Made by a program: the position numbers and the translations under genes
Shown here: positions 50,042 to 63,172 of the stretch, piece by piece
Position numbering within the stretch: position 1 is the stretch's first letter
Layout: every line of letters starts with the position of its first letter
Assembly: GCA_029624765.1 (NCBI GenBank)
Contig: JARSSO010000007.1
Coordinates: forward strand, 1-64,000
DNA length: 64,000 nucleotides
Direction: 5' to 3'
Source of the DNA: Candidatus Contendibacter sp.
GTDB lineage: Bacteria > Pseudomonadota > Gammaproteobacteria > Competibacterales > Competibacteraceae
The notes under the pieces: generated by a model
Database searches by the model: none
The model's input: only the letters and a program-made list of their open reading frames with translations
What the model was told of the DNA's origin: nothing

Positions 50042-50308
50042 ATGAACAGCAAAACCCTCGTTAACTCCGCCCTCGCCAGCGTTTTCGCCCTGGGTCTGGT
50101 CGCCACCGCCGGTCAAGCCGTCGCCGCCGAGGAGAAGAACGCCGAGAAGTGCTACGGCGTCGTCAAGGCCGGCAAGAACGACTGTCAAACCAGCGCCCAC
50201 GCCTGCGCCGGTCAGGCCAAGAAGGACGGTCAGGGCGATTCCTGGGTTTACGTCCCCAAGGGCACCTGCGAGAAGATCGTCGGCGGCAGCTTGCAGCCGA
50301 AGGCCTGA
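50042..50308 (+). CDS. bufA: Bufferin-type RiPP precursor (DUF2282 family)
   Basis: An 88-residue precursor. A signal peptide ends near AVAAEE (1-29). The mature part has four cysteines, C37, C48, C55 and C76, in the order '[14 protein letters not shown]', 'HACAG' and 'PKGTC'. This is the DUF2282 pattern of bufferin precursors, whose cysteines are converted by an MNIO enzyme to sulfur heterocycles that buffer copper in the periplasm. The conserved EKCYG motif is intact. A TAGGAG ribosome site precedes the ATG. It is first in a bufA-bufB-bufC-doxX block. Metal use in this organism is inferred from the family. Confidence 0.88.
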
Positions 50309-50318
50309 GGCGATTCCG

Positions 50319-51194
50319 ATGACCGCCAAGCCGGCCCTGTCCAGGCTTGGTCCCAGCTCGATTCCGGCTCGCGCCGGAATCGGCCTGCGGGCCGAACACT
50401 ATGCCGCCGTTTTGGAAGCTCCCCCGCCGGTCGGCTGGCTGGAGGTCCACAGCGAAAACTATTTCGGCGCCGGGGGCAAGCCCCTGGATTACCTGGAGCG
50501 CATCCGCGCCCATTATCCCCTGAGCCTGCACGGCGTCGGGTTGTCCATCGGTTCGACCGATCCGCTCGACCAGCGGCATCTGGCCAGCCTCAAGAACCTG
50601 ATCCGGCGGTTCGAACCGGCGCTGGTTTCCGAACATTTGTCCTGGAACTCGGTCGGTGGGCGCTATTTCAACGATCTGTTGCCGCTGCCCTACACGGAAG
50701 AGGCGCTCGACCACATGGTGGCGCGGGTGGTCCAGGTTCAGGACGTTCTCGGTCGGCAAATCCTGATCGAGAATCCGTCCAGCTATCTGCAATACGTGGA
50801 ATCGGCCATTCCCGAAGGGGAGTTTCTGGTTGCCTTGGCCGACCGCTCCGGCTGCGGCGTGTTGCTGGACGTGAACAACGTTTACGTCAGCGCCCGCAAC
50901 CACGGTTTCGACGCCAGCGCCTATCTGCGCGCGATTCCGCGCCGCCTGGTCCAGGAAATCCATCTGGCCGGGTTTACGGTGAACCGTTTCGACGACGGCG
51001 AACTGTTGATCGATACCCACAACCGGCCGGTCTGGCCGGCGGTCTGGGCGCTCTACCGCCAAGCCGTGCAACGCTTCGGCCGGATTCCGACGCTGATCGA
51101 ATGGGACACCGACCTGCCCGAACTGGCGGTGTTGGTGGACGAAGCGCACCGGGCCGACGCGATCCTGGAGGAACATCATGCTCGGGCTGCGTGA
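50319..51194 (+). CDS. bufB: MNIO enzyme (DUF692), bufferin maturase
   Basis: A 291-residue TIM-barrel oxidase of the multinuclear non-heme iron family (DUF692). Candidate iron ligands are all present: H71 ('LHGVGLSIG'), E105/H106 ('SEHLSW'), E151/N152, D184 and N186/N187 ('LLDVNNVYV'), H215 ('EIHLAG'), D232/H234 ('DTH') and E261/D263 ('EWDTD'). The family modifies cysteines of the precursor peptide. It starts ten bases after bufA and overlaps bufC by 17 bases, so all are cotranscribed. Confidence 0.93.
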   Translation: MTAKPALSRLGPSSIPARAGIGLRAEHYAAVLEAPPPVGWLEVHSENYFGAGGKPLDYLERIRAHYPLSLHGVGLSIGSTDPLDQRHLASLKNLIRRFEPALVSEHLSWNSVGGRYFNDLLPLPYTEEALDHMVARVVQVQDVLGRQILIENPSSYLQYVESAIPEGEFLVALADRSGCGVLLDVNNVYVSARNHGFDASAYLRAIPRRLVQEIHLAGFTVNRFDDGELLIDTHNRPVWPAVWALYRQAVQRFGRIPTLIEWDTDLPELAVLVDEAHRADAILEEHHARAA

Positions 51195-51960
51195 ACTGCA
51201 ACTCGGTTTTGCCGCCGCGGTGCTGGACGGCGCCGATGGCGTTTTCGACCGCCACGTCCGGGCAGCGGGGCTGAGCGGCGCCCGTCGCTTGCAAGTCTAC
51301 CGCAACAACGCCCTGCTGAGCCTGACCGGCGCGCTCGAAGCGGTTTATCCGGTAACGCGCCGCGTGGTGGGGGAAGGATTTTTTCAGTACGCGGCGGCGC
51401 AATACATCGCGCGCCATCCGTCCCGCTCGGGCGATTTGCACGCATTCGGCGAACAGTTTCCGCCGTTTCTTCAATCGTTCGTGCCGGCCGCCGATCTGGT
51501 CTACCTGCCCGATGTCGCCCGGCTGGAATGGGCCTATCACCGGGTTTTCCACGCCGCCGATCATCGGCCGCTCGATGTGGCGGCGCTGGCGCGAGTGCCC
51601 GCCGAACGGCGAGGAGAATTGCGTTTCGAACTGCATCCCGCCGCCCGCCTGCTCGAATCGGCTTTTCCGATCCTGCGGATCTGGCAGGTCAACCAGGACG
51701 ATCACGACGGCGATGCGGCGGTGGATTTGAGCGAAGGCGGCGTCAAGCTGCTGATCGTCCGCCGCGAGAATCTGGAGATCGAATTTCAACCCCTGGAAGA
51801 GGGGGAATTTGATCTGTTGCAGGCCCTGGCCGGAGCTTGCGACTTCGCCACGGCCTGTGGGCGGGCGATGGCCGCGCGACCGACGCTCGATTTGCCGGCC
51901 TGCGTTCAACGGCACGTTTCCCAGGGCGTCCTGGTCGCCTTTCACCTGCCAGGTTCTTGA
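51178..51960 (+). CDS. bufC: DUF2063 partner protein of the MNIO enzyme
   Basis: A 260-residue protein. The N-terminal part ('LRELQLGFAAAVL', 'RRLQVYRNNALLSLTGALEAVYPVTRRVVGEGFFQYAAAQYIARHPSRSGDLHAFGEQFP') is the DUF2063 'putative DNA-binding' domain. In RiPP clusters it acts instead as a peptide-binding partner that presents the precursor to the MNIO enzyme. The C-terminal part is a beta-rich domain of about 120 residues. The 17-base overlap with bufB makes coupled translation certain. Confidence 0.9.
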   Translation: MLGLRELQLGFAAAVLDGADGVFDRHVRAAGLSGARRLQVYRNNALLSLTGALEAVYPVTRRVVGEGFFQYAAAQYIARHPSRSGDLHAFGEQFPPFLQSFVPAADLVYLPDVARLEWAYHRVFHAADHRPLDVAALARVPAERRGELRFELHPAARLLESAFPILRIWQVNQDDHDGDAAVDLSEGGVKLLIVRRENLEIEFQPLEEGEFDLLQALAGACDFATACGRAMAARPTLDLPACVQRHVSQGVLVAFHLPGS

Positions 51961-51996
51961 TCAACTTACCGATTTCAACCACCCGAGGAGAACCTC

Positions 51997-52551
51997 ATGA
52001 TGACCGCCACCGACATGCTCGATAACCCACCCCAGCGCTCGTTCTGGGCGAAAGCCGCTCCCGCTCTCAAGAAAGCCGACACCTTGTTCCACAAGGCCGC
52101 CGATTGGCTGGCGCCCGTCGCCGATTTATTGGCGCGCTACTGGGTCGCCGCCGCCTTCTTCGGTTCGGGGCTGACCAAGACCACGAGCGGCAGTTTCACG
52201 CTGTTCGGCCATACCTTCAACTATCCGCTGAGCGTGTTCCCGGCGGAGAGCACCTTCACGCTGTTCGAATACGAGTACCACGTGCCCTTGTTGCCATCCA
52301 CGCTGGCGGCTTACCTCGGCACGGCGGCGGAGTTGCTGTTGCCGGTGTTCCTGCTGCTGGGTCTGGGCACCCGCTACGCCGCGTTCGCGCTGTTCGTGTT
52401 CAACATCGTGGCCGTCGTTTCCTATCCCGACCTGATGGAGGCGGGGTTGAAGGATCACCAGGTTTGGGGTTTGTTGCTGCTGATCACACTCTGCCACGGT
52501 CCGGGCAAACTGTCCCTGGATCATTGGATCGGCCGCCTGGTTCGCCGCTGA
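51997..52551 (+). CDS. DoxX-family membrane protein of the bufferin cluster
   Basis: A 184-residue inner-membrane protein with four helices. DoxX features are 'LLARYWVAAAFFGSGLTKTTSGSFTLFGHTFNYPLSVFPAESTFTLFEYEYHVPLLPSTLAAYLGTAAELLLPVFLLLGLGTRYAAFALFVFNIVAVVSYPDL'. DoxX proteins are linked to quinone redox reactions and are a frequent fourth gene of bufferin-like operons (sometimes bufD). The ATG has GAGGAG. It lies 36 bases after bufC. Confidence 0.92.
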   Translation: MMTATDMLDNPPQRSFWAKAAPALKKADTLFHKAADWLAPVADLLARYWVAAAFFGSGLTKTTSGSFTLFGHTFNYPLSVFPAESTFTLFEYEYHVPLLPSTLAAYLGTAAELLLPVFLLLGLGTRYAAFALFVFNIVAVVSYPDLMEAGLKDHQVWGLLLLITLCHGPGKLSLDHWIGRLVRR

Positions 52552-53411: not shown

Positions 53412-53651
53412 ATGAAAACCTTGATCAAGCTGACCGTAACCTTGGTTACCGGCCTGGCCCTGAGCGCGGCGTTCGCCCAAGGCTTCAACATGAAGTCGGT
53501 GGAAGTGATGGACGCCAATAAAGATGGCATGATCACCAAGGAGGAGTACATGAAGCATAGCAACGACATGGCGGCCTGGGACAAGATGGACACCAACAAG
53601 GATGGGATGCTGGACGCGAATGAAATCAAGGTTGGTTTCAACCAGAAATAA
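53412..53651 (+). CDS. Small exported EF-hand protein
   Basis: A 79-residue protein with a signal peptide ('LTVTLVTGLALSAAFAQG') and two EF-hand loops, 'DANKDGMITKEEY' and 'DTNKDGMLDANEI'. Both have Asp at 1, Asn at 3, Asp at 5 and Glu at 12, so calcium binding in the periplasm is likely. A strong terminator lies 62 bases after its stop. It sits between the bufferin block and the sigma-54 activator. Confidence 0.9.
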   Translation: MKTLIKLTVTLVTGLALSAAFAQGFNMKSVEVMDANKDGMITKEEYMKHSNDMAAWDKMDTNKDGMLDANEIKVGFNQK

Positions 53652-53993: not shown

Positions 53994-55961
53994 ATGAATG
54001 AAACCGTTTCGCAGCCCGCCGATAGACGATCCGTTCCGCGCAGTGACCCAGCGTTCCTGCCTCCCGACGAGCGGGACGCCATGCACTTGGCCTTGCGGTC
54101 CATCGTCGAAGGCACGGTCACCGCCACGGGCACCGAATTCTTCCACGCGCTGGTGCGGGAACTCGCCCAGGCGCTGAACGTGCGCCATGCCTTCGTGAGC
54201 GAACTGTTGGAAAACAAGGCGCGCGTGCGCACGTTGGCGTTCTGGTTCGGCGGTAAGCCCGCCGACAACATCGAATTTGACCTGGACGGCACGCCCTGCG
54301 AAATCGTCATTCGCGGCGACACGGTGTATTACACCAGCAAAGTTTACGAGATGTTTCCCCGGCATCCCGAACTCAAGGAACTAGGGATCGAGAGCTACTT
54401 TGGCGTACCGCTGGTATCCGAATCGGGAAACGAAATGATGGGCCACTTGGCTGTCATGCACGACCAGCCGATGGTCAAGGAATTTCGAGGCATGGCGTTG
54501 CTCCGGATTTTCGCCACCCGCGCCAGGGTCGAACTGGAGCGCAAGCGTGCTGAACAGGCCCTGCGCAAAAGCGAGGAACGGTTGGCCAGCATTCTGGCCA
54601 GCGCCATGGATGCCGTCATCACCATCGACGCCGAACAGCGCATCACCTTGTTCAACCCCGCCGCCGAAAAAGCCTTTCGTTGCCAGGCGGCGCAGGCCGT
54701 CGGCCAGCCGTTCGAAACCTTCCTTTCCAAGCGCTTCGGCAATCTGCTCAAGGGGTACTGCCTGGCGGTCCAGCCCGCCACCGTAAGTTCTCGACAACTG
54801 TGGGCGCCCGAGGGGCTGACTGCCCGACGCCGGGACGGCGAGGAATTTCCGGTGGAGGCGACGATCTCTCCCCTGGAGATCGAGGGTCGGCGGTTCTTCA
54901 CCGTGATTTTGCGAGACGTGACCGAACGCTGGCGGTCCGAGGAAACCTTCAAGCAGTTGCAACTGGAAAACGTCTATCTTCAGGAAGAGATCAAGACCCG
55001 GCAAAGTCCCAGTCACATCGTCGGCGACTCGCCGGCCATGCAGGACGTGTTCGCCCACGCCGAACAGGTGGCGGGCACCGATTCCACCGTGCTCCTGACC
55101 GGGGAAACCGGCACCGGCAAGAGCGTCATCGCGCGGTCGATTCACGATTTGAGCGACCGCCGGGACAAGCTGTTCGTGCCGGTCAATTGCGCCGCCCTGC
55201 CGGGCGATTTGGTGGAAAGCGAGTTGTTCGGCCACGAGAAGGGCGCGTTCACCGGTGCGATCGCCCAGCGCAAGGGGCGTTTCGAACTGGCCGACGGCGG
55301 CACCCTGTTCCTGGACGAGGTTGGCGAGATGAGCGCCGGCGCCCAGGCCAAGCTGTTGCGGGTGTTGCAGGATCAGGAATTCGAGCGCGTCGGCGGCACG
55401 CAGACCTTGAAGGTCAACGTGCGGCTGGTCGCCGCCACCAACCGCGATTTGGCCCGAATGGTCAAGGAAGGCGGCTTTCGCGCCGATCTGTATTATCGGC
55501 TGAACGTATTTCCGATTCGGTTGCCGTCCCTGCGCGAGCGCCCGACCGACATTCCGTTGCTGGCCCGGTTTTTTCTGGACAAGTTCGCGCGGAAGATGGG
55601 CAAATCGATTCACGATCTCTCGCCCAAGGCGAGCGAGCGGCTGCTGCACTACTCGTGGCCCGGCAATATCCGGGAGCTGCAAAACGTGATCGAGCGCGCG
55701 GCCATTCTGACCCGTGGTTCCCTGCTCGAAATCGACAATGCGCTTGAATTGCGCCTGGAAGACCAGGAAACGAAGGCCGCTCCCGAACAATGGGTTTCTT
55801 TCGAGGACATGGAGCGGGCTTATATCCTCAAGGTATTGGAGCGCACGCGCTGGGTCATCGAGGGCGAGCAGGGCGCCGCGGCGATTTTGGATCTCAATCC
55901 CAGCACCCTGCGTTCCCGGATGCAGAAACTGAACATCCGCAAACCCAAAAATCTCCCCTGA
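53994..55961 (+). CDS. Second sigma-54-dependent transcriptional activator (GAF-PAS-AAA-HTH)
   Basis: A 655-residue enhancer-binding protein. Start 53994 has an AAAGGA ribosome site; an open frame of 72 codons upstream does not look coding. A GAF-like sensor covers about 30-185 and a PAS domain about 195-310. The AAA+ domain has Walker A 'GETGTGKS' near 367, the sigma-54 contact 'GAFTGA' near 418, and '[20 protein letters not shown]'. The HTH is '[24 protein letters not shown]'. Its order and HTH resemble the activator at 18427, so the two are paralogues. Likely targets are the perfect promoter at 56321 and perhaps the bufferin promoter at 49821. Confidence 0.93.
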
Positions 55962-56140: not shown

Positions 56141-56221
56141 CTTTTTGACGGCCGCTGGAGAACCAGATCGTCGAGGTGGCCCTTTGAATCATGACGGCGG
56201 CCACGCTATTCGACGGCTTTG

Positions 56222-56292
56222 CGATATATCGTGGGACCGATTGCCCAAATCAGGCCAGCGCATGGAAGGCCATACAATTTAATCAATTGATT
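56222..56292 (+). promoter_or_regulatory. Candidate activator palindrome and IHF site
   Basis: CGATATATCG (56222-56231) is a perfect ten-base palindrome 90 bases before the -24 box, resembling the CGATATTTCG repeated at 20395. TAATCAATTGATT (56280-56292) fits the IHF consensus on the minus strand and lies between it and the promoter. DNA bending there is usual for sigma-54 promoters. Confidence 0.55.
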
Positions 56293-56320
56293 TTTATCAA
56301 TATTTATTGATGTTTCGCTG

Positions 56321-56337
56321 CTGGCACGGACATTGCT
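56321..56337 (+). promoter_or_regulatory. Consensus sigma-54 promoter
   Basis: CTGGCACG-GACA-TTGCT matches the -24/-12 consensus at every conserved position. Transcription should begin near 56348, giving a leader of about 47 bases before the ATG at 56395. Confidence 0.9.
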
Positions 56338-56394
56338 AAATAGAGATCGACACCAACGATGTCATCCCTAAACCAGCCAATGAGGAGTTACCCC

Positions 56395-56697
56395 ATGAAC
56401 AAGACCATCGCGACCACCCTGTTGATTCTGGCGTCCGGCCTGACTCTGAGCACCACCGCGCTGGCGGAGCCTTTCAATCGCAGCGGTTCCTATGTGAACG
56501 CCATCAGCAATGCTCATTCCAGCGTCGGTGTTCAAAGCACGCCGAGCGTTCGGCACACCGATGCGCTGGCGACGGTCAACAGTTTCAACGACCGGACGGA
56601 CTATGAAGTAACCACCGTCAATTCCAAGCCGGTTGTCGAGTCCCCCGTGTCCAGAATGCTTTCGATCATTACCCGCGGGTTCAACGATCGTAGCTGA
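56395..56697 (+). CDS. Small exported protein under a sigma-54 promoter
   Basis: A 100-residue protein. The signal peptide is 'TIATTLLILASGLTLSTTALAEP'. The mature 77 residues are polar, rich in Ser, Asn, Thr and Val ('NRSGSYVNAISNAHSSVGVQSTPSVRHTDALATVNSFNDRTDYEVTTVNSKPVVESPVS'), with no cysteine. No family is recognised. The GAGGAG ribosome site is excellent and the promoter upstream is the best sigma-54 site in the window, so it is likely produced strongly when the adjacent activator is switched on. It could be a periplasmic or secreted structural or stress protein. Confidence 0.82.
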   Translation: MNKTIATTLLILASGLTLSTTALAEPFNRSGSYVNAISNAHSSVGVQSTPSVRHTDALATVNSFNDRTDYEVTTVNSKPVVESPVSRMLSIITRGFNDRS

Positions 56698-56795
56698 ATC
56701 CTGATGCGCCGAGATCGCCAGCCAGGTTTTCCGATCTGGATAACTTGGCGGCGACTCGATCATTCATCGCATTTCATTGAGTGTGAGGTGATGTC

Positions 56796-56987
56796 ATGAA
56801 CCAGCCATCTATTTCCGCTTCCGCCGGCGCCACTCAGGTTTATTCGAGGAAATGGAGAATGGGGGGCGTGCTGAGTCTGGATCTATCACCCGCCTTGCTC
56901 AGCCTGGCGGCCCGGAGCAAGACCAAGCTGTTCCCATTGCGGCCCCCGGCGGTCAAGGCCGAGCCATCCCCCCGAATCGTTCCCTGA
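56796..56987 (+). CDS. Possible small protein
   Basis: A 63-codon frame ('MNQPSISASAGATQVYSRKWRMGG', later basic and Pro-rich) with a GAGGTGATG stretch before the ATG. Composition is odd for a folded protein and no homologue is recognised. It fills the gap between the sigma-54-driven gene and the SDR gene. It may be a leader or simply chance. Confidence 0.3.
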   Translation: MNQPSISASAGATQVYSRKWRMGGVLSLDLSPALLSLAARSKTKLFPLRPPAVKAEPSPRIVP

Positions 56988-57010: not shown

Positions 57011-57832
57011 ATGTCGCTGACCGATACCTGCGAACTTCCCCTGAAGGGCCAGCGCGCCCTGGTGACCGGAGCCAGTTCCGGCATTGGCGCCGCCATCGCC
57101 AAGGCCCTGGCGGCGGCCGGCGCGAAAGTCGTCGTCAACTACGCCGGCGGCGCGGACCGGGCGCACGCCGTGGCGAACGCCATTCAGGCGGCCGGCGGCG
57201 AGGCGATGGCGATTCGCGCCGACGTCAGCCGGGAAGACGAGGTCGAGGCGATGTTCGCCCAGATGATCGAGACCTGGGGCAGCATCGATATTCTGGTCAA
57301 CAACGCCGGCTTGCAAAAAGACGCCCCCCTGGTCGAGATGAGCCTGGCCGACTGGCAAAAGGTCATCGACATCAATCTGACCGGTCAGTTTCTGTGTTCC
57401 CGCGCCGCCGTGCGCGAATTCCTCCGGCGCGGCGTCGTGCCGGAACTGTCGCGCGTCGCCGGCAAGATCATCTGCATGTCCTCGGTCCACGATGTGATTC
57501 CGTGGGCCGGACACGCCAACTACGCCGCGTCCAAGGGCGGTGTCAGCCTGTTGATGAAAACCATGGCCCAGGAACTCGCGCCGCGCTGCATCCGGGTCAA
57601 CGCCATTTCGCCCGGCGCGATCAAGACCCCGATCAACACCGCCGCCTGGATGACCCCCGAGGCCGAGGCGGAACTGTTGAAGCTGATTCCCTGCCGCCGG
57701 GTCGGCGAGCCGGAAGACATCGCCCGCGCCACGGTGTGGCTCGCCTCCGACGCGTCCGACTACGTCACCGGCGCCACGCTGTACGTGGACGGCGGCATGA
57801 CCCTCTATCCCGGTTTCGATCAGGGAGGCTGA
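57011..57832 (+). CDS. SDR-family oxidoreductase (glucose 1-dehydrogenase-like)
   Basis: A 273-residue NAD(P)-dependent dehydrogenase. The cofactor motif is 'VTGASSGIGAAIAKALAAAGAKVVVNY', followed by 'NNAGLQ'. The catalytic residues are in 'MSSVHDVIPWAGHANYAASKGG' (Ser, Tyr, Lys), and the end is 'TGATLYVDGGMTLYPGF'. The pattern is that of bacterial glucose 1-dehydrogenases, but SDR specificity is hard to predict. Start 57011 has TTGAGGAG. The next gene begins one base after the stop. Confidence 0.9.
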   Translation: MSLTDTCELPLKGQRALVTGASSGIGAAIAKALAAAGAKVVVNYAGGADRAHAVANAIQAAGGEAMAIRADVSREDEVEAMFAQMIETWGSIDILVNNAGLQKDAPLVEMSLADWQKVIDINLTGQFLCSRAAVREFLRRGVVPELSRVAGKIICMSSVHDVIPWAGHANYAASKGGVSLLMKTMAQELAPRCIRVNAISPGAIKTPINTAAWMTPEAEAELLKLIPCRRVGEPEDIARATVWLASDASDYVTGATLYVDGGMTLYPGFDQGG

Positions 57833-57833
57833 C

Positions 57834-58886
57834 ATGCAACGGATCGGATCGCGCCGTGCCATTCTCCCGCGCACGGTGCTGTTGGGTCTGTGCCTGGCCC
57901 AGCAACCTGGTGCTTGGGCCGCCGGCGAGGCTGGAACGCCGGCCCGTTCGGATTCCCGCGCCGACCATTCCAGCCTGCCCGCCGACGTACAGCCCTGGTG
58001 GCCGAGCCGCTATGGCGCGGACGATCAACTCGGCACCCTCAACGAAATCACCCCCGAGGTGGTGCGAGCGGCGACCGCCCTGGTGAAAACCGGAACCGTG
58101 GTCGATCTGGGCCGGGTACTGGACGACGACACCCCCAAGTTTCCCGGCCGCTACTGGCACCAGACCGTCGACGTTTCGCCCCATCTCGCCAACCTGCGCC
58201 GCCCGGACGTCGACGGCAAGGGTTGGGGCAAGAACCAGATCAACTGGATCACCGAGATTCAGGTGGGCACCTTTCAGGTCGGCACCCAGTTGGATTCCAT
58301 CGGCCACATCCAGATCGGCGACCGGTTTTACAACGGCTGGACCACGCGCGATGTGGTGGAGTCTTGGGGCCTGAACCGCTTCGGTACCGAAACCGTGCCG
58401 CCCATCGTTACCCGGGGCGTGCTGGTCGATATCGCCGCCTACAAGGGCGTGGAGCGCCTGGCCAAGGGCTACGTGATCACCCTGGCCGACGTGCAAGGCG
58501 CGTTGGAAAAGCAGGGCGTTACCCTGCGGCCCGGCGACGCGGTGCTGTTTCACACCGGCTGGGGTGGACTGTGGGGCAAGGACAACACCGAATTTCTTTC
58601 CGGCGAGCCCGGTCCCGGCCTGGAGGTCGTGAACTGGCTGTACGCGCAGCGCATCGCGTTGACCGGCGCCGACACCTGGAGCTACGGACCGGTGCCCGGC
58701 GAAGACCCGGAACGCCCCTTCCTGGTGCCACAGACCATGTACGTGAAGATGGGATTGTTTGGCCTGGAAAATCTGGCGACCGAAGAGTTGGCGCGGCGCG
58801 GCGTCCACGAATTCCTGTTCACCCTCACCCATGCCAAGACCCGCGGTTCAACGGCGGCGATCATCGCCCCGGCGGCGGTTTATTGA
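57834..58886 (+). CDS. Cyclase-family (kynurenine-formamidase-like) exported protein
   Basis: A 350-residue protein with a signal peptide ('ILPRTVLLGLCLAQQPGAWA'). The fold is the cyclase/formamidase type. The usual metal motif HxGTHxDxPxH is here 'QVGTQLDSIGH' (Q148, G150, T151, Q152, D154, H158). Both histidines of HxGTH are glutamine, while the Asp and last His remain. Related proteins with an incomplete motif exist, so it may bind metal differently or have another activity. Cotranscribed with the SDR and GMC genes. Confidence 0.84.
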   Translation: MQRIGSRRAILPRTVLLGLCLAQQPGAWAAGEAGTPARSDSRADHSSLPADVQPWWPSRYGADDQLGTLNEITPEVVRAATALVKTGTVVDLGRVLDDDTPKFPGRYWHQTVDVSPHLANLRRPDVDGKGWGKNQINWITEIQVGTFQVGTQLDSIGHIQIGDRFYNGWTTRDVVESWGLNRFGTETVPPIVTRGVLVDIAAYKGVERLAKGYVITLADVQGALEKQGVTLRPGDAVLFHTGWGGLWGKDNTEFLSGEPGPGLEVVNWLYAQRIALTGADTWSYGPVPGEDPERPFLVPQTMYVKMGLFGLENLATEELARRGVHEFLFTLTHAKTRGSTAAIIAPAAVY

Positions 58887-58901: not shown

Positions 58902-60344
58902 ATGAACGAACGCTACGACATCCTCATCGTCGGTTCCGGCGCGGGCGGCTCGGCGGCGGCCTATGCCCTGGCGCGGGCCGGCCGGCGGGTGCTGCTGCTG
59001 GAAAAGGGTCGGGAACTGCCGCGCGACGGCAGCACGCTGGACGTGGACAAAGTCATCCGGCAGGGGATTTTCAAGAGCAAGGAGCATTGGCTGGACAAGA
59101 ATGGCCGAACCTTCGAGCCGGAGGAATATTTCAATCTGGGCGGCAAGACCAAGTGGTACGGCGCGGCCTTGGCACGCTTCGAGCCGCGCGAATTCGAGGC
59201 CGAGCCGGCGCACCAATGCCTGCCCTGGCCGATTTCGTATCGGGAATTGTCGCCCTACTACGAGCAGGCCGAAACCTTGCTAGGCGTCCATCGTTTCGAG
59301 CCAGAACCGGATTTGCAAGCCATCGTCGGCAAACTGACCCGCAACGGCGCCGGCTGGAATGCCCAGCCCCTGCCGCTGGCCCTGGACCCAAACATCGTCG
59401 AACATCGCGAAGAAGCCGCTCATTTCGACGCCTTCGCTTCGGTCAAGAACCTGAAGGCCGACGGCCAGCACGCCTTGCTGGAGCGGGTTCAGCACCTGCC
59501 TAACCTGGTCATCCTAACCAGGCGGGCGGTGCGCGATTTCATCTTCGACCCGGAGCGGCCCGAGCGGTTGATCGGGGTTCGCACCGAGAGTGGCGACGAA
59601 TTCGGGGCTAATACGGTGCTGCTGGCGGCGGGAGCGTTGCATTCGCCGCGTTTGTTGCAAGGCTATCTGAGCCGCAGCGGTTTGGCCGAGCGGCTGCCGT
59701 GCGCGGATGCGGTGGGGCGCAACTACAAATCCCACCTGCTCAGCGCCGTGCTGGCTTTTTCCGCCACTCCCAAGACCGATCTGCTGCGGAAGACCCTGTT
59801 GCTGTTGAACGACCGGCTGCCGCACAGCAGTATTCAGCCCCTGGGTTTCGATGGTGAACTGCTCAGTACCCTGATTCCGGGGTTCGTCCCGCGTTGGTTC
59901 GCCAGCGCGCTCGGTCATCGCGCCTACGGTTTCTTCTTGCAGACCGAGGACGGTTCCGATCCCGCCAACCGCGTCGTCGCCCAGACCAACGGCGCCCGCT
60001 ATCCGCAACTGGACTACGACCCGGCGCGCTTGCCGGCGGCGCTGGAGGAGCATCGGCGGCTGGTGCGCGATTTCAACTTCTCGCTGCTGAAGATCGGCCT
60101 GCCGGCGGCGGCCAAGGGAATTCCGCTGGCGGGCACCGCGCACGCTTGCGGCACGCTGGTCGCGGGCAACGATCCCCGTACCTCCGTGGTGGACGCCGAC
60201 GGCAAGGTGCATGGCCTGGACAATCTGTACGTGGTGGACGGCAGCGTGCTGCCGCGTTCCAGCCGGGTCAACCCGTCACTGACCATCTACGCCTGGGCGT
60301 TGCGGGTGGCGGAACGGTTGCAACAAGGGGAGCGGCCAGCATGA
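58902..60344 (+). CDS. GMC-family FAD oxidoreductase
   Basis: A 480-residue flavoenzyme. The N-terminal FAD motif is 'DILIVGSGAGGSAAAYALARAGRRVLLLEKG'. A central 'GGKTKWYGAALARFEPREF' has the GMC pattern, and the C-terminus is 'GTAHACGTLVAGNDPRTSVVDADGKVHGLDNLYVVDGSVLPRSSRVNPSLTIYAWALRVAE', with the conserved His and Asn. GMC enzymes oxidise sugars or alcohols. A sugar substrate is plausible given the SDR and debranching neighbours. The stop overlaps the next start by four bases (ATGA). Confidence 0.92.
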   Translation: MNERYDILIVGSGAGGSAAAYALARAGRRVLLLEKGRELPRDGSTLDVDKVIRQGIFKSKEHWLDKNGRTFEPEEYFNLGGKTKWYGAALARFEPREFEAEPAHQCLPWPISYRELSPYYEQAETLLGVHRFEPEPDLQAIVGKLTRNGAGWNAQPLPLALDPNIVEHREEAAHFDAFASVKNLKADGQHALLERVQHLPNLVILTRRAVRDFIFDPERPERLIGVRTESGDEFGANTVLLAAGALHSPRLLQGYLSRSGLAERLPCADAVGRNYKSHLLSAVLAFSATPKTDLLRKTLLLLNDRLPHSSIQPLGFDGELLSTLIPGFVPRWFASALGHRAYGFFLQTEDGSDPANRVVAQTNGARYPQLDYDPARLPAALEEHRRLVRDFNFSLLKIGLPAAAKGIPLAGTAHACGTLVAGNDPRTSVVDADGKVHGLDNLYVVDGSVLPRSSRVNPSLTIYAWALRVAERLQQGERPA

Positions 60345-62464
60345 GCGACAAACTGCCGGACTTTATCCGCTTCGGGCGGGCTATCTGTGGCGATCTCAGC
60401 CAGGCCGAGCGGCGCGAGTGGTGGCTGGGCAACGGCTTGGGCGCCTACGCCGCCGGCACGATTGCCGGGACTTTGACCCGCCGCTATCACGGCTTGTTGA
60501 TCGCGCCGGTTTATCCGCCGCTCGGCCGCTGGCTGGTGTTTTCCAAGGCCGACGCTACCTTCCTCGACGGCGATCGGGAAATCCCGCTGTTCACCAACCG
60601 TTGGAGCGGGGGAGCGGTGGTCCCCGAAGGGCACGTCCAGATCGAATCCTTCCACCTGCACGGTCGGATGCCGGTGTGGCGCCATGCCTTGGGCGACCGG
60701 GTGATCGAGCAGCGCATCTGGCTGGAGCCGAGAGCCAATACGGTTTATGTGGCGTACCGGCTGGAGGAAATCCCCCCGGCTTCGCCACCCCCCTTTTCCA
60801 AAGGGGGGGCAGGGGGGGATTTAGCGCTGCGGGTCCGTTTGCTGGTCAACGCTCGCGATCATCACGTTAGCATGGCGCCCGGTGGGTTCACACCGCAAGT
60901 GGAGAGGGCAGGGGAGCAATTGCACGTCATCTGTCCCGACCGGTTCACCTTGCGCTTCCAAGCGCCCGGCGGCCAGCTTCAAACCGAGTGGGACTGGATC
61001 GAGAATTTCGATCTGCCCTTGGAGCGGGAACGCGGACTGCCGGATCGCGACGCGCATCTGTGCGTCGGTCAGGCATTGCTGACCCTGCGCCCAGGAGTCT
61101 GGGTCGGCGTGGTCGCCAGTCTGCGCGACGACGCTTCCGCCGACCTAAACGCGGCGCTGCAACGGTTCTTCGACCACGAGACCACTTTGCTCGACCGCGC
61201 CCGCCCATCCCTCCAAATCCCCCCGGCTTCGCCACCCCCCTTTGCAAAATCCCCCCCTGCTCCCCCTTTGGAAAAGGGGGGAACGGGGGGATTGGGGGGG
61301 ATTTCGCCGCCCGACTGGATCGAACAACTGACGTTGGCCGCCGACAGCTTCCTGTTCGCCCGACCGTTGCCGAATCTGCCCGACGGCGAATCGGTGATCG
61401 CCGGCTACCCGTGGTTCGGCGACTGGGGCCGCGACACCATGATCGCTTTACCCGGCTTGACGCTGGCGACCGGTCGGCTTGACAGCGCCCGGCGCATCCT
61501 GCTCACCTTCGCCCGTTTCGTCGATCAGGGCATGTTGCCCAACGTGTTCCCCGGCGCGGGCGAAACGCCGGACTACAATACGGTGGATGCCGGACTGTGG
61601 TACTTCGAGGCGTGGCGGGCGTATCTGGAAGCCAGCGACGATTCGGCGGCATTGGCCGAGGTGTTCCCGGTACTGGCCGAGATGATCGACTGGCACGTTC
61701 GGGGCACGCGCTATCGCATCAGCATGGACCCGGCCGATGGGTTGCTCCACGCCGGCGAACCGGGCGTGCAACTCACCTGGATGGACGCCAAGGTCGGCGA
61801 CTGGGTGGTGACGCCGCGCATCGGCAAGCCGGTGGAGATCAACGCGCTCTGGTACAACGCCCTGAACATCATGGTCGATTTCGCCGAGCGGCTAAAGCGA
61901 CCGTCCGCGCCCTACGCGGAACTGGCGGCCAAGGCGCGGCAAGGTTTCCAACGCTTCGTCCGTTCCGATGGCGCCGGCCTGTTCGACGTGCTGGATAGCC
62001 CCGCTGGCGACGATCCCACCCCACGCCCCAACCAGATTTTCGCCGTCAGCCTGCCGCACAGTCCGCTGGACCCGGAAATCCAGCAGATCGTGGTGCGGGT
62101 CTGCGGGCGGGAGTTGCTGACTTCCTACGGTCTCCGCTCCCTGGCGCCCGGTCATCCCGATTACCGACCCCACTACCTCGGCGGGGTTTGGGAACGGGAC
62201 GGCGGCTATCACCAGGGGCCGGTCTGGGCCTGGCTGCTGGGCCATTACGCGCTGGCCGAGCATCGCGTCCACGGCGACGCAGCGGCGGCCCAAGCCCGGT
62301 TGCAGCCGATCCGCGATCACTTGCTGGACGCCGGCCTCGGTACGGTCAGCGAAATTCTCGACGGCGCGGCGCCCCACACCCCGCGCGGCGCGCCGGCCCA
62401 AGCCTGGTCGGTGGCCTGCGTGCTGGAGGCGTGGCAGCGACTGGAGCGGCTGAAACGGCAATAA
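60341..62464 (+). CDS. Glycogen debranching enzyme with two repeat-derived insertions
   Basis: A 707-residue amylo-alpha-1,6-glucosidase of the bacterial/archaeal type. The N-terminal domain begins 'WWLGNGLGAYAAGTIAGTLTRRYHGLLIAP'. The catalytic (alpha/alpha)6 part has 'GYPWFGDWGRDTMIALPGL', 'GETPDYNTVDAGLWYFEA' and 'LTWMDAKVGDWVVTPRIGKPVEINALWYNAL', with acidic residues intact. Two low-complexity insertions (about 143-160 and 292-321, 'IPPASPPPFSKGGAGGDL' type) come from palindromic repeats. They lie before and at the edge of the catalytic domain, so activity may survive. It is the last gene of the operon. Confidence 0.93.
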   Translation: MSDKLPDFIRFGRAICGDLSQAERREWWLGNGLGAYAAGTIAGTLTRRYHGLLIAPVYPPLGRWLVFSKADATFLDGDREIPLFTNRWSGGAVVPEGHVQIESFHLHGRMPVWRHALGDRVIEQRIWLEPRANTVYVAYRLEEIPPASPPPFSKGGAGGDLALRVRLLVNARDHHVSMAPGGFTPQVERAGEQLHVICPDRFTLRFQAPGGQLQTEWDWIENFDLPLERERGLPDRDAHLCVGQALLTLRPGVWVGVVASLRDDASADLNAALQRFFDHETTLLDRARPSLQIPPASPPPFAKSPPAPPLEKGGTGGLGGISPPDWIEQLTLAADSFLFARPLPNLPDGESVIAGYPWFGDWGRDTMIALPGLTLATGRLDSARRILLTFARFVDQGMLPNVFPGAGETPDYNTVDAGLWYFEAWRAYLEASDDSAALAEVFPVLAEMIDWHVRGTRYRISMDPADGLLHAGEPGVQLTWMDAKVGDWVVTPRIGKPVEINALWYNALNIMVDFAERLKRPSAPYAELAAKARQGFQRFVRSDGAGLFDVLDSPAGDDPTPRPNQIFAVSLPHSPLDPEIQQIVVRVCGRELLTSYGLRSLAPGHPDYRPHYLGGVWERDGGYHQGPVWAWLLGHYALAEHRVHGDAAAAQARLQPIRDHLLDAGLGTVSEILDGAAPHTPRGAPAQAWSVACVLEAWQRLERLKRQ
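60768..60822. repeat. C-run/G-run palindromic repeat in the debranching gene, copy 1
   Basis: AAATCCCCCC at one end and GGGGGGATTT at the other, with CCCCCCTTTTCCAAAGGGGGG near the middle. It shares 29 identical bases with copy 2 at 61214. It is translated as Pro- and Gly-rich sequence without breaking the frame. Confidence 0.9.
61214..61303. repeat. C-run/G-run palindromic repeat in the debranching gene, copy 2
   Basis: A longer, nested copy: two C-run blocks and two G-run blocks between AAATCCCCCC and GGGGGGATTT. It looks like one repeat inserted in another. It encodes about 30 Pro/Gly/Lys-rich residues in frame. Confidence 0.9.
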
Positions 62465-62588: not shown

Positions 62589-62780
62589 ATGCGAACGAAT
62601 ATTGTAATAGATGACACCCTGATGGACGACGCCTTGAAACTGACTGGTCTCAAGACCAAGCGAGAAGCCGTTGAACTTGGACTCAAGACGTTGATCTTAT
62701 TAAAGAAGCAGGAAAATATACGGCGTTTCCGGGGCAAATTGCGTTGGGAAGGCGATCTCGACGAAATGCGGACCGACTGA
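62589..62780 (+). CDS. vapB: VapB-type antitoxin
   Basis: A 63-residue antitoxin of the DUF2191/VapB family: 'MRTNIVIDDTLMDDALKLTGLKTKREAVELGLKTLI' is a ribbon-helix-helix DNA-binding part. The C-terminus 'RRFRGKLRWEGDLDEMRTD' is the toxin-binding tail. Start 62589 is chosen by family match; the open frame further upstream has no support. The stop shares one base with the toxin start (TGATG). Confidence 0.92.
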   Translation: MRTNIVIDDTLMDDALKLTGLKTKREAVELGLKTLILLKKQENIRRFRGKLRWEGDLDEMRTD

Positions 62781-63172
62781 TGGTTCTTGTGGATTCGAGC
62801 GTGTGGATTGCGTACTTCAATGGCGCTATTACACCCGAGACGGAACGACTTGACGCCTTGTTGGGCCAAGAGCCTGTTGGGCTTGGCGATTTGATTCTGG
62901 CCGAAGTGCTTCAAGGGTTTCGTCTCGATAAGGACTACCGCACCGCAAAGGAACTACTCACTTCCCTCACCATCTACGACCTTCTCGGCAAGGACTTGGC
63001 GATTCGGGCTGCGGACAACTACCGCGCCCTCCGAAAGCGCGGCGTCACAGTTCGAAAAACGACCGATGCAATAATTGCAACCTTCTGTATTGAGAAGGAC
63101 TTTGCACTACTCCATTCTGACAAAGACTTCTTACCTTTCGTAACGCACCTCAATCTTCGCGCGGCGCTCTAA
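62780..63172 (+). CDS. vapC: VapC-type PIN-domain ribonuclease toxin
   Basis: A 130-residue PIN-domain RNase. The first acidic residue is in 'MVLVDSSVWIAYF' (D5). A conserved Glu lies in 'DLILAEVLQGF', and further acids in 'RKTTDAIIATFCIEKDFALLHSDKDF'. VapC toxins cleave specific tRNA or rRNA and are held inactive by VapB. It is translationally coupled to vapB. Confidence 0.94.
   Translation: MVLVDSSVWIAYFNGAITPETERLDALLGQEPVGLGDLILAEVLQGFRLDKDYRTAKELLTSLTIYDLLGKDLAIRAADNYRALRKRGVTVRKTTDAIIATFCIEKDFALLHSDKDFLPFVTHLNLRAAL

Follow-up and report, generated by a model that had tools for sequence, protein, structure and literature searches.

Genes and features of the locus

The window, that is, the whole 64,000-nt stretch of DNA analyzed here, contains a gene for a sigma-54-dependent activator, a sigma-54 promoter preceded by an IHF site and, farther upstream, a conserved block, and a row of genes that begins with the small protein SP100 (Table 1). 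Relatives are cited by genome labels (G001 and so on) where they must be told apart.

Table 1. Features around the SP100 promoter, in window coordinates.
Feature	Position	Strand	Remark
sigma-54-dependent activator, GAF-PAS-AAA+-Fis HTH	53994-55961	+	Pfam domains; start codon by homology
28-nt conserved upstream block TATTCGACGGCTTTGCGATATATCGTGG, probable activator binding site (UAS)	56207-56234	+	kept in 9/9 homologous promoters
palindrome CGATATATCG, core of upstream block	56222-56231		
IHF consensus site WATCAANNNNTTR	56280-56292	-	exact; between UAS and promoter
-24/-12 sigma-54 promoter TGGCACGGACATTGCT	56322-56337	+	12/12 consensus positions
SP100, orphan, probably exported small protein, 100-aa precursor	56395-56697	+	start ATG 56395
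strong mRNA hairpin 3' of SP100, no U-tract	56710-56758	+	own intergenic z = -3.48; 3/200 shuffles as good
orf63, second conserved small gene, 63 aa, core SRKWRIGGVLSLDISPALLSL	56796-56987	+	open in 6 compared loci and in G004
SDR oxidoreductase, glucose 1-dehydrogenase-like	57011-57832	+	Pfam adh_short_C2 2.5e-71; NCBIfam PRK07231 above cut-off
PF04199 Cyclase-family protein, putative hydrolase	57834-58886	+	Pfam 2.2e-26
GMC-family FAD oxidoreductase	58902-60344	+	Pfam GMC_oxred_C 1.2e-19
amylo-alpha-1,6-glucosidase, glycogen debranching type	60341-62464	+	Pfam GDE_C 3.2e-114, GDE_N 1.5e-57

We judged sigma-54 promoters by the GG-N10-GC core, its TGGCACG-N4-TTGCW context, and a constant distance to the gene, all of which are found here. 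The element ends 57 nt before the SP100 start codon; the runner-up site in the 500 nt upstream of that codon scores 8, and no other site in the whole 64-kb window scores at least 11 with GG and GC kept. Exact matches to TGGCACG-N4-TTGCW number three in the 4.29-Mb genome, this promoter included, versus one for the reversed pattern used as a control. The strongest argument against chance is that all nine SP100 copies keep an element of 11–12 of 12 positions at 54–57 nt from the ATG, their second-best sites scoring 7–9. Judged from its letters and their conservation, the site, which an earlier note on this DNA had called ideal, is a genuine and evolutionarily conserved sigma-54 promoter, an ordinary kind of switch. 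The genome carries rpoN.

The 5' leader between promoter and start codon (56338-56394, CTAAACCAGCC..GAGGAGT) is unusually conserved across the nine SP100 copies; its frame is not preserved, so it perhaps has a role at the RNA level. Of the three exact sigma-54 matches in the genome, the remaining two lie at L020:7718 and L021:7842; one follows another activator-like gene and precedes a transporter-like ORF, and one precedes a 1089-aa protein-kinase-like ORF.

The upstream palindrome described in the earlier note proved to lie within a block common to all nine SP100 promoters. This block has the pattern TATTYR-N8-GCGRTATATC, followed by GYGG in most copies, and stands 113–116 nt before the -24 element in every one. 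Without mismatch, the pattern occurs 12 times in 39 Competibacteraceae genomes (nine SP100 promoters and three promoters of AhpD-like genes), each time preceding a sigma-54 element, and the ten genomes concerned all carry the activator, in G027 as a contig-edge fragment. Our own genome has a single match at 0 or 1 mismatch; the reversed pattern, with at most one mismatch allowed, gives six across the 39 genomes. Four further sites match with one mismatch. Those in G002 and G007 belong to SDR promoters, the former lying 257 nt before the -24 element, with a second G002 block at 106 nt. The site in G016 was rejected as a promoter UAS, being without a sigma-54 site of at least 10 within 300 nt, and the locus of the one in G035 is apparently cut at a contig end. 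Since all 12 exact matches precede a sigma-54 element, the block is a probable activator site, and the adjacent activator is the probable protein that binds it.

Shuffling the 75 nt before the -24 element of this promoter 300 times never produced as good a match as the IHF consensus site, which the earlier note had also reported. An IHF match stands in the same place across the SP100 promoters, exact in four and with one mismatch in five, single one-mismatch matches being not unusual (20–26% of shuffles for SP100 promoters). The best match is two mismatches or worse in five of nine SDR promoters and in one AhpD-like promoter. HU/IHF-family genes are present in the genome. With a predicted IHF site between UAS and -24 element, the SP100 promoter fits the IHF-assisted type.

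SP100, orf63, and the genes behind them

The start of SP100, read by eye, resembles a signal peptide, with K3, a hydrophobic stretch, and AxA before E25; G15, L16, A22, and A24 are invariant in the nine aligned sequences. On this reading SP100 is probably exported, as the earlier note had held. That note had also described a 77-residue protein rich in Ser, Asn, and Thr. The composition stands, as the predicted mature form has 27 such residues (13 S, 7 N, 7 T) and is free of Cys; the length does not, since a cleavage site placed by eye after ALA would give a mature form of 76 residues.

Homologues of SP100 amount to nine copies in eight of the 39 Competibacteraceae genomes, with contig titles naming Candidatus Contendobacter, Candidatus Competibacter, or Competibacteraceae. 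The invariant positions comprise parts of the leader, an internal FN, and a C-terminal GFNDR followed by S or G. The ending GFNDR[SG]-stop is kept in all nine copies, and a DNA search of the 39 genomes for GFNDR-x-stop matched only these genes. Indels are many and in-frame, and dN/dS between our copy and the eight others is 0.13–0.46, which indicates that SP100 is selected as a protein. An ORF containing MFSATIEGFNDRS with no stop behind it lies between the two SP100 copies of G015 (L017:5238-5480, minus strand) and is probably a decayed third copy.

In agreement with the earlier claim of no known family, Pfam, NCBIfam, PHROGs, and PADLOC contain no match to SP100. When 369 genomes of the class were searched with a profile, our own copy and three weak matches came up; the latter are partial, with E values between 9e-4 and 7e-3 and stops in one of them, and were rejected as relatives. 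Searches of phages and plasmids returned none; no relative outside Competibacteraceae was found in these three sets. By these searches the SP100 family is new, a genuine orphan gene confined to one family of sludge bacteria. AlphaFold gave no usable fold (pLDDT 51.8, pTM 0.15).

The same four databases hold no match for orf63, and no signal peptide was seen in its product. Its dN/dS between our copy and five others is 0.15–0.35, and AlphaFold again gave no usable fold (pLDDT 58.3). The hairpin that separates orf63 from SP100 has a stem kept in six sequences with little covariation. It is possibly a 3' end stabilizer or an expression damper, keeping SP100 at a higher level than the genes downstream, and it may stop part of the transcripts.

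According to the earlier note, SP100 is the only gene that the promoter serves. Our comparison does not support this. Behind SP100 come five genes of the same orientation at successive distances of 98, 23, 1, 15, and -4 nt, the start of the debranching enzyme overlapping the GMC stop. Between 56300 and 63400 no sigma-70-like promoter was found, and terminator-like sites are not in excess (6 vs 6.9 in shuffles). In six loci (ours, G018, G006, G037, G015a, and G004), the leader genes SP100 and/or orf63 stand directly before the SDR gene; in G004 the contig starts too close upstream of orf63 to show the promoter. The SDR gene has its own sigma-54 promoter with block in none of these six loci versus all ten other usable loci, all of them loci related to one another and two supplied by G027. 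This count started from 17 matches; G016 (start cut off) and G010 and G011 (63% identical, no promoter or block) were left out, and G007 (broken frames in the draft) and G013 contig 200 were added. Because the SDR gene lacks its own sigma-54 promoter where the leaders are adjacent, the SP100 promoter most likely serves the whole row there. Here it most likely heads the six-gene row SP100-orf63-SDR-cyclase-GMC-debranching enzyme rather than a single gene, and spacing and comparison suggest that the row is probably cotranscribed. SP100 is separated from the SDR operon in four of its nine copies (G013, G007, G033, and G015b) and can thus stand as a separate unit in relatives. Behind the operon, at 62592-63172, lie two small overlapping genes that by eye look like a VapB/VapC-type toxin-antitoxin pair.

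The activator and its probable targets in relatives

The activator matches Sigma54_activat (4.5e-73), GAF, PAS, and HTH_8 in Pfam and carries GAFTGA and Walker A/B motifs. With its Sigma54_activat AAA+ domain, GAFTGA, and Fis HTH, the predicted protein is a bacterial enhancer-binding protein. It was rejected as NifA (TIGR01817, 411.3 bits vs a cut-off of 528.85) and as NorR (PRK05022, 356.6 vs 476 bits). A 79-aa EF-hand protein with a signal-peptide-like start is encoded just before it (53412-53651) and is kept in several relatives.

Orthologues of the activator, 75–93% identical, occur in 15 of the 39 family genomes. They are present in all eight SP100 genomes versus 7 of 31 without SP100 (Fisher 1e-4, uncorrected for kinship). 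Conserved synteny with the activator, a check that the earlier note had suggested, was found in six of the eight SP100 genomes, where the two genes adjoin; in G018 and G007 they are on different contigs. In G001 and G029, which have the activator, neither a block match nor an SDR orthologue above the threshold was found.

Within the family, the block stands 92–116 nt before the -24 element in 21 promoters, which belong to three types of target; a 22nd is found in G013 contig 200. Besides SP100, there are two types. One is an AhpD-like (carboxymuconolactone-decarboxylase-family) gene behind a no-mismatch block in G025, G027, and G013 contig 84; in G013 a tautomerase gene and an OYE-type gene come next. 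The other is the SDR-(cyclase)-GMC-debranching operon, where ten loci have a block variant and a sigma-54 element about 70 nt before the SDR gene. Among the papers listed by our literature searches, none concerned this regulon. The regulon and its orphan peptides are new; the type of switch is well-known.

Among 369 genomes of the class, activator-like genes of 48–57% identity occur in five further genomes. At four of six such loci outside the family, the gene is near a sigma-54 element and an SDR gene (G170, G282, G249 contig 65, and G377); at the other two, G249 contig 13 and G378, no SDR operon was found. In G170 and G282, the activator-like gene precedes a weak sigma-54 element (9–10 of 12), a small ORF, and the SDR gene. 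In G249 contig 65, two activator-like genes are followed by a sigma-54 element, bufA, doxX, SDR, cyclase, GMC, and debranching enzyme genes. In G377, three such genes stand about 3 kb before a sigma-54 element, then bufABC, doxX, SDR, cyclase, and GMC, where the stretch ends. G170 has a block-like site between activator homologue and SDR gene at about the same distance (0/500 shuffles as good); those in G282, G249, and G377 are weak, with 2.8, 7.8, and 27% of shuffles as good.

A bufferin-type locus is also found in our window (50042-52551), with a DUF2282 precursor (Pfam 6.2e-26) and synteny kept in relatives; the genes after the precursor we take to be bufB (MNIO), bufC (DUF2063), and doxX. 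This bufA-bufB-bufC-doxX set stands 3.8–6.3 kb before the SP100 promoter. A sigma-54-like TGGCAC-N-type site before bufA, kept in our genome, G006, G015, and G037, was rejected as a sigma-54 promoter, since it has TTGAA at -12, lacks GC there, and has no block. In the stretches L129:5813-12092 and L127:14225-19001 of more distant genomes, a sigma-54 element near activator homologues is followed first by a bufferin precursor and then by doxX-SDR-cyclase-GMC. Sigma-54 control of bufferins in distant genomes is, from this gene order, possible. A survey of bufferins names sigma-70-type sigma factors and NrsF (PMC12452194); in the accessible part of its text we found no mention of GMC or short-chain enzymes, nor of a link between bufferin-type loci and a sigma-54 activator such as G249 and G377 show.

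Proposed working and comparison with known systems

We consider it quite probable that activator, block, IHF site, and sigma-54 element form a switch that drives a transcript from SP100 to the debranching enzyme. The activator would sense a signal through GAF/PAS and bind the block some 115 nt upstream of the -24 element; IHF would bend the DNA so that the bound activator reaches RNA polymerase–sigma-54, and ATP hydrolysis would open the promoter. A single transcript would yield much SP100, as the first and hairpin-capped gene, and less orf63 and enzymes. The same activator would drive the separate SDR and AhpD-like/tautomerase/OYE units of relatives. The enzymes would oxidize or reduce a stress compound inside the cell, and SP100 may serve as a disordered accessory peptide, either in the envelope or outside. 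It is only the enzyme families (SDR, GMC, AhpD-like, OYE, and the bufferin neighbors) that hint, weakly, at a conditional response to redox or reactive-carbonyl stress. Several observations speak against this scheme: the 98-nt gap with its strong hairpin could block much read-through, the one-mismatch IHF matches are singly unremarkable and several SDR promoters and one AhpD-like promoter have still poorer ones, the activator is unlinked in G018 and G007, SDR orthologue and block are missing in G001 and G029, and the activator-like loci G249 contig 13 and G378 lack the SDR operon.

The hairpin also bears on a rather unlikely alternative, in which it ends or cuts the transcript, the promoter serves SP100 only, and the SDR operon has an unrecognized promoter. 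Its strength, and the copies of SP100, with or without orf63, that stand apart from the SDR operon in four loci, would suit this reading. However, the hairpin has no U-tract and is not called as a terminator, no sigma-70-like site was found before the SDR gene, and the SDR gene lacks its own sigma-54 promoter exactly where the leaders adjoin (0/6 vs 10/10). The block could instead be the site of another regulator and the adjacency of the activator accidental, as its placement on another contig in two SP100 genomes and its presence without a block match in G001 and G029 might suggest. We regard this as decidedly improbable; the activator is present in all ten genomes with a no-mismatch block (in one as the contig-edge fragment), and in the distant G170 the block-like site between activator homologue and SDR gene was equaled by no shuffle.

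Very improbable, in our estimate, is that SP100 is not a working protein, its conservation reflecting a leader RNA or the drift of a recent family-specific ORF. The lack of a predicted fold (pLDDT 51.8), the narrow distribution, the many indels, and the conserved 5' leader fit such a view, but the residues that never vary at the signal-peptide-like start and in the C-terminal motif, the in-frame character of the indels, the dN/dS of 0.13–0.46, and GFNDR[SG]-stop in nine of nine copies argue for a protein.

Going beyond the switch that we favor, a more speculative extension, to which we give little chance of being correct, would make SP100 and orf63 a lineage-specific two-peptide module, inserted in Competibacteraceae behind a mobile activator-block-promoter cassette and occupying the first-gene place that belongs to a bufferin precursor in more distant relatives. 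SP100, with its repeated FN-containing motifs and invariant GFNDR[SG], would then be extracytoplasmic, disordered, Cys-free, processed or sorted at its tail, and working with the SDR/GMC enzymes. For the uncultured, glycogen-accumulating bacteria of sludge, these results define a sigma-54 regulon with its activator, a probable binding block, and targets of three types, and they add a family of orphan, probably exported proteins whose tail is conserved. Knowing which signal the activator senses would point to the purpose of the orphan peptides.

The activator resembles GAF enhancer-binding proteins of the NifA, NorR, and FhlA type in its N-terminal GAF domain, AAA+ domain with GAFTGA, and C-terminal Fis-type HTH. 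Its best NCBIfam scores are for nifA, the formate-hydrogenlyase activator, PrdR, and NorR, and it falls below the cut-off of each of the 25 NCBIfam families shown. Unlike that type, it has GAF plus PAS and an upstream block of the CGATATATCG type. For SP100, we take small sigma-54-driven exported proteins of the PEP-CTERM/PrsR type as a class of likeness; both are small exported proteins (SP100 probably so) with a sigma-54 promoter and a conserved C-terminal end. In contrast to that type, SP100 has no PEP-CTERM match, and the activator is below the PEP_resp_reg cut-off and has no receiver domain. We rejected SP100 as a bufferin precursor, as it has no DUF2282 match, no Pfam match, and no Cys. 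It is nevertheless like the precursors of bufferin (MNIO/DUF692-DUF2063-DoxX) loci in being small, probably exported, and in the first-gene place, and in G249 and G377 bufA is the gene that, behind a sigma-54 element, leads the same SDR-cyclase-GMC genes.
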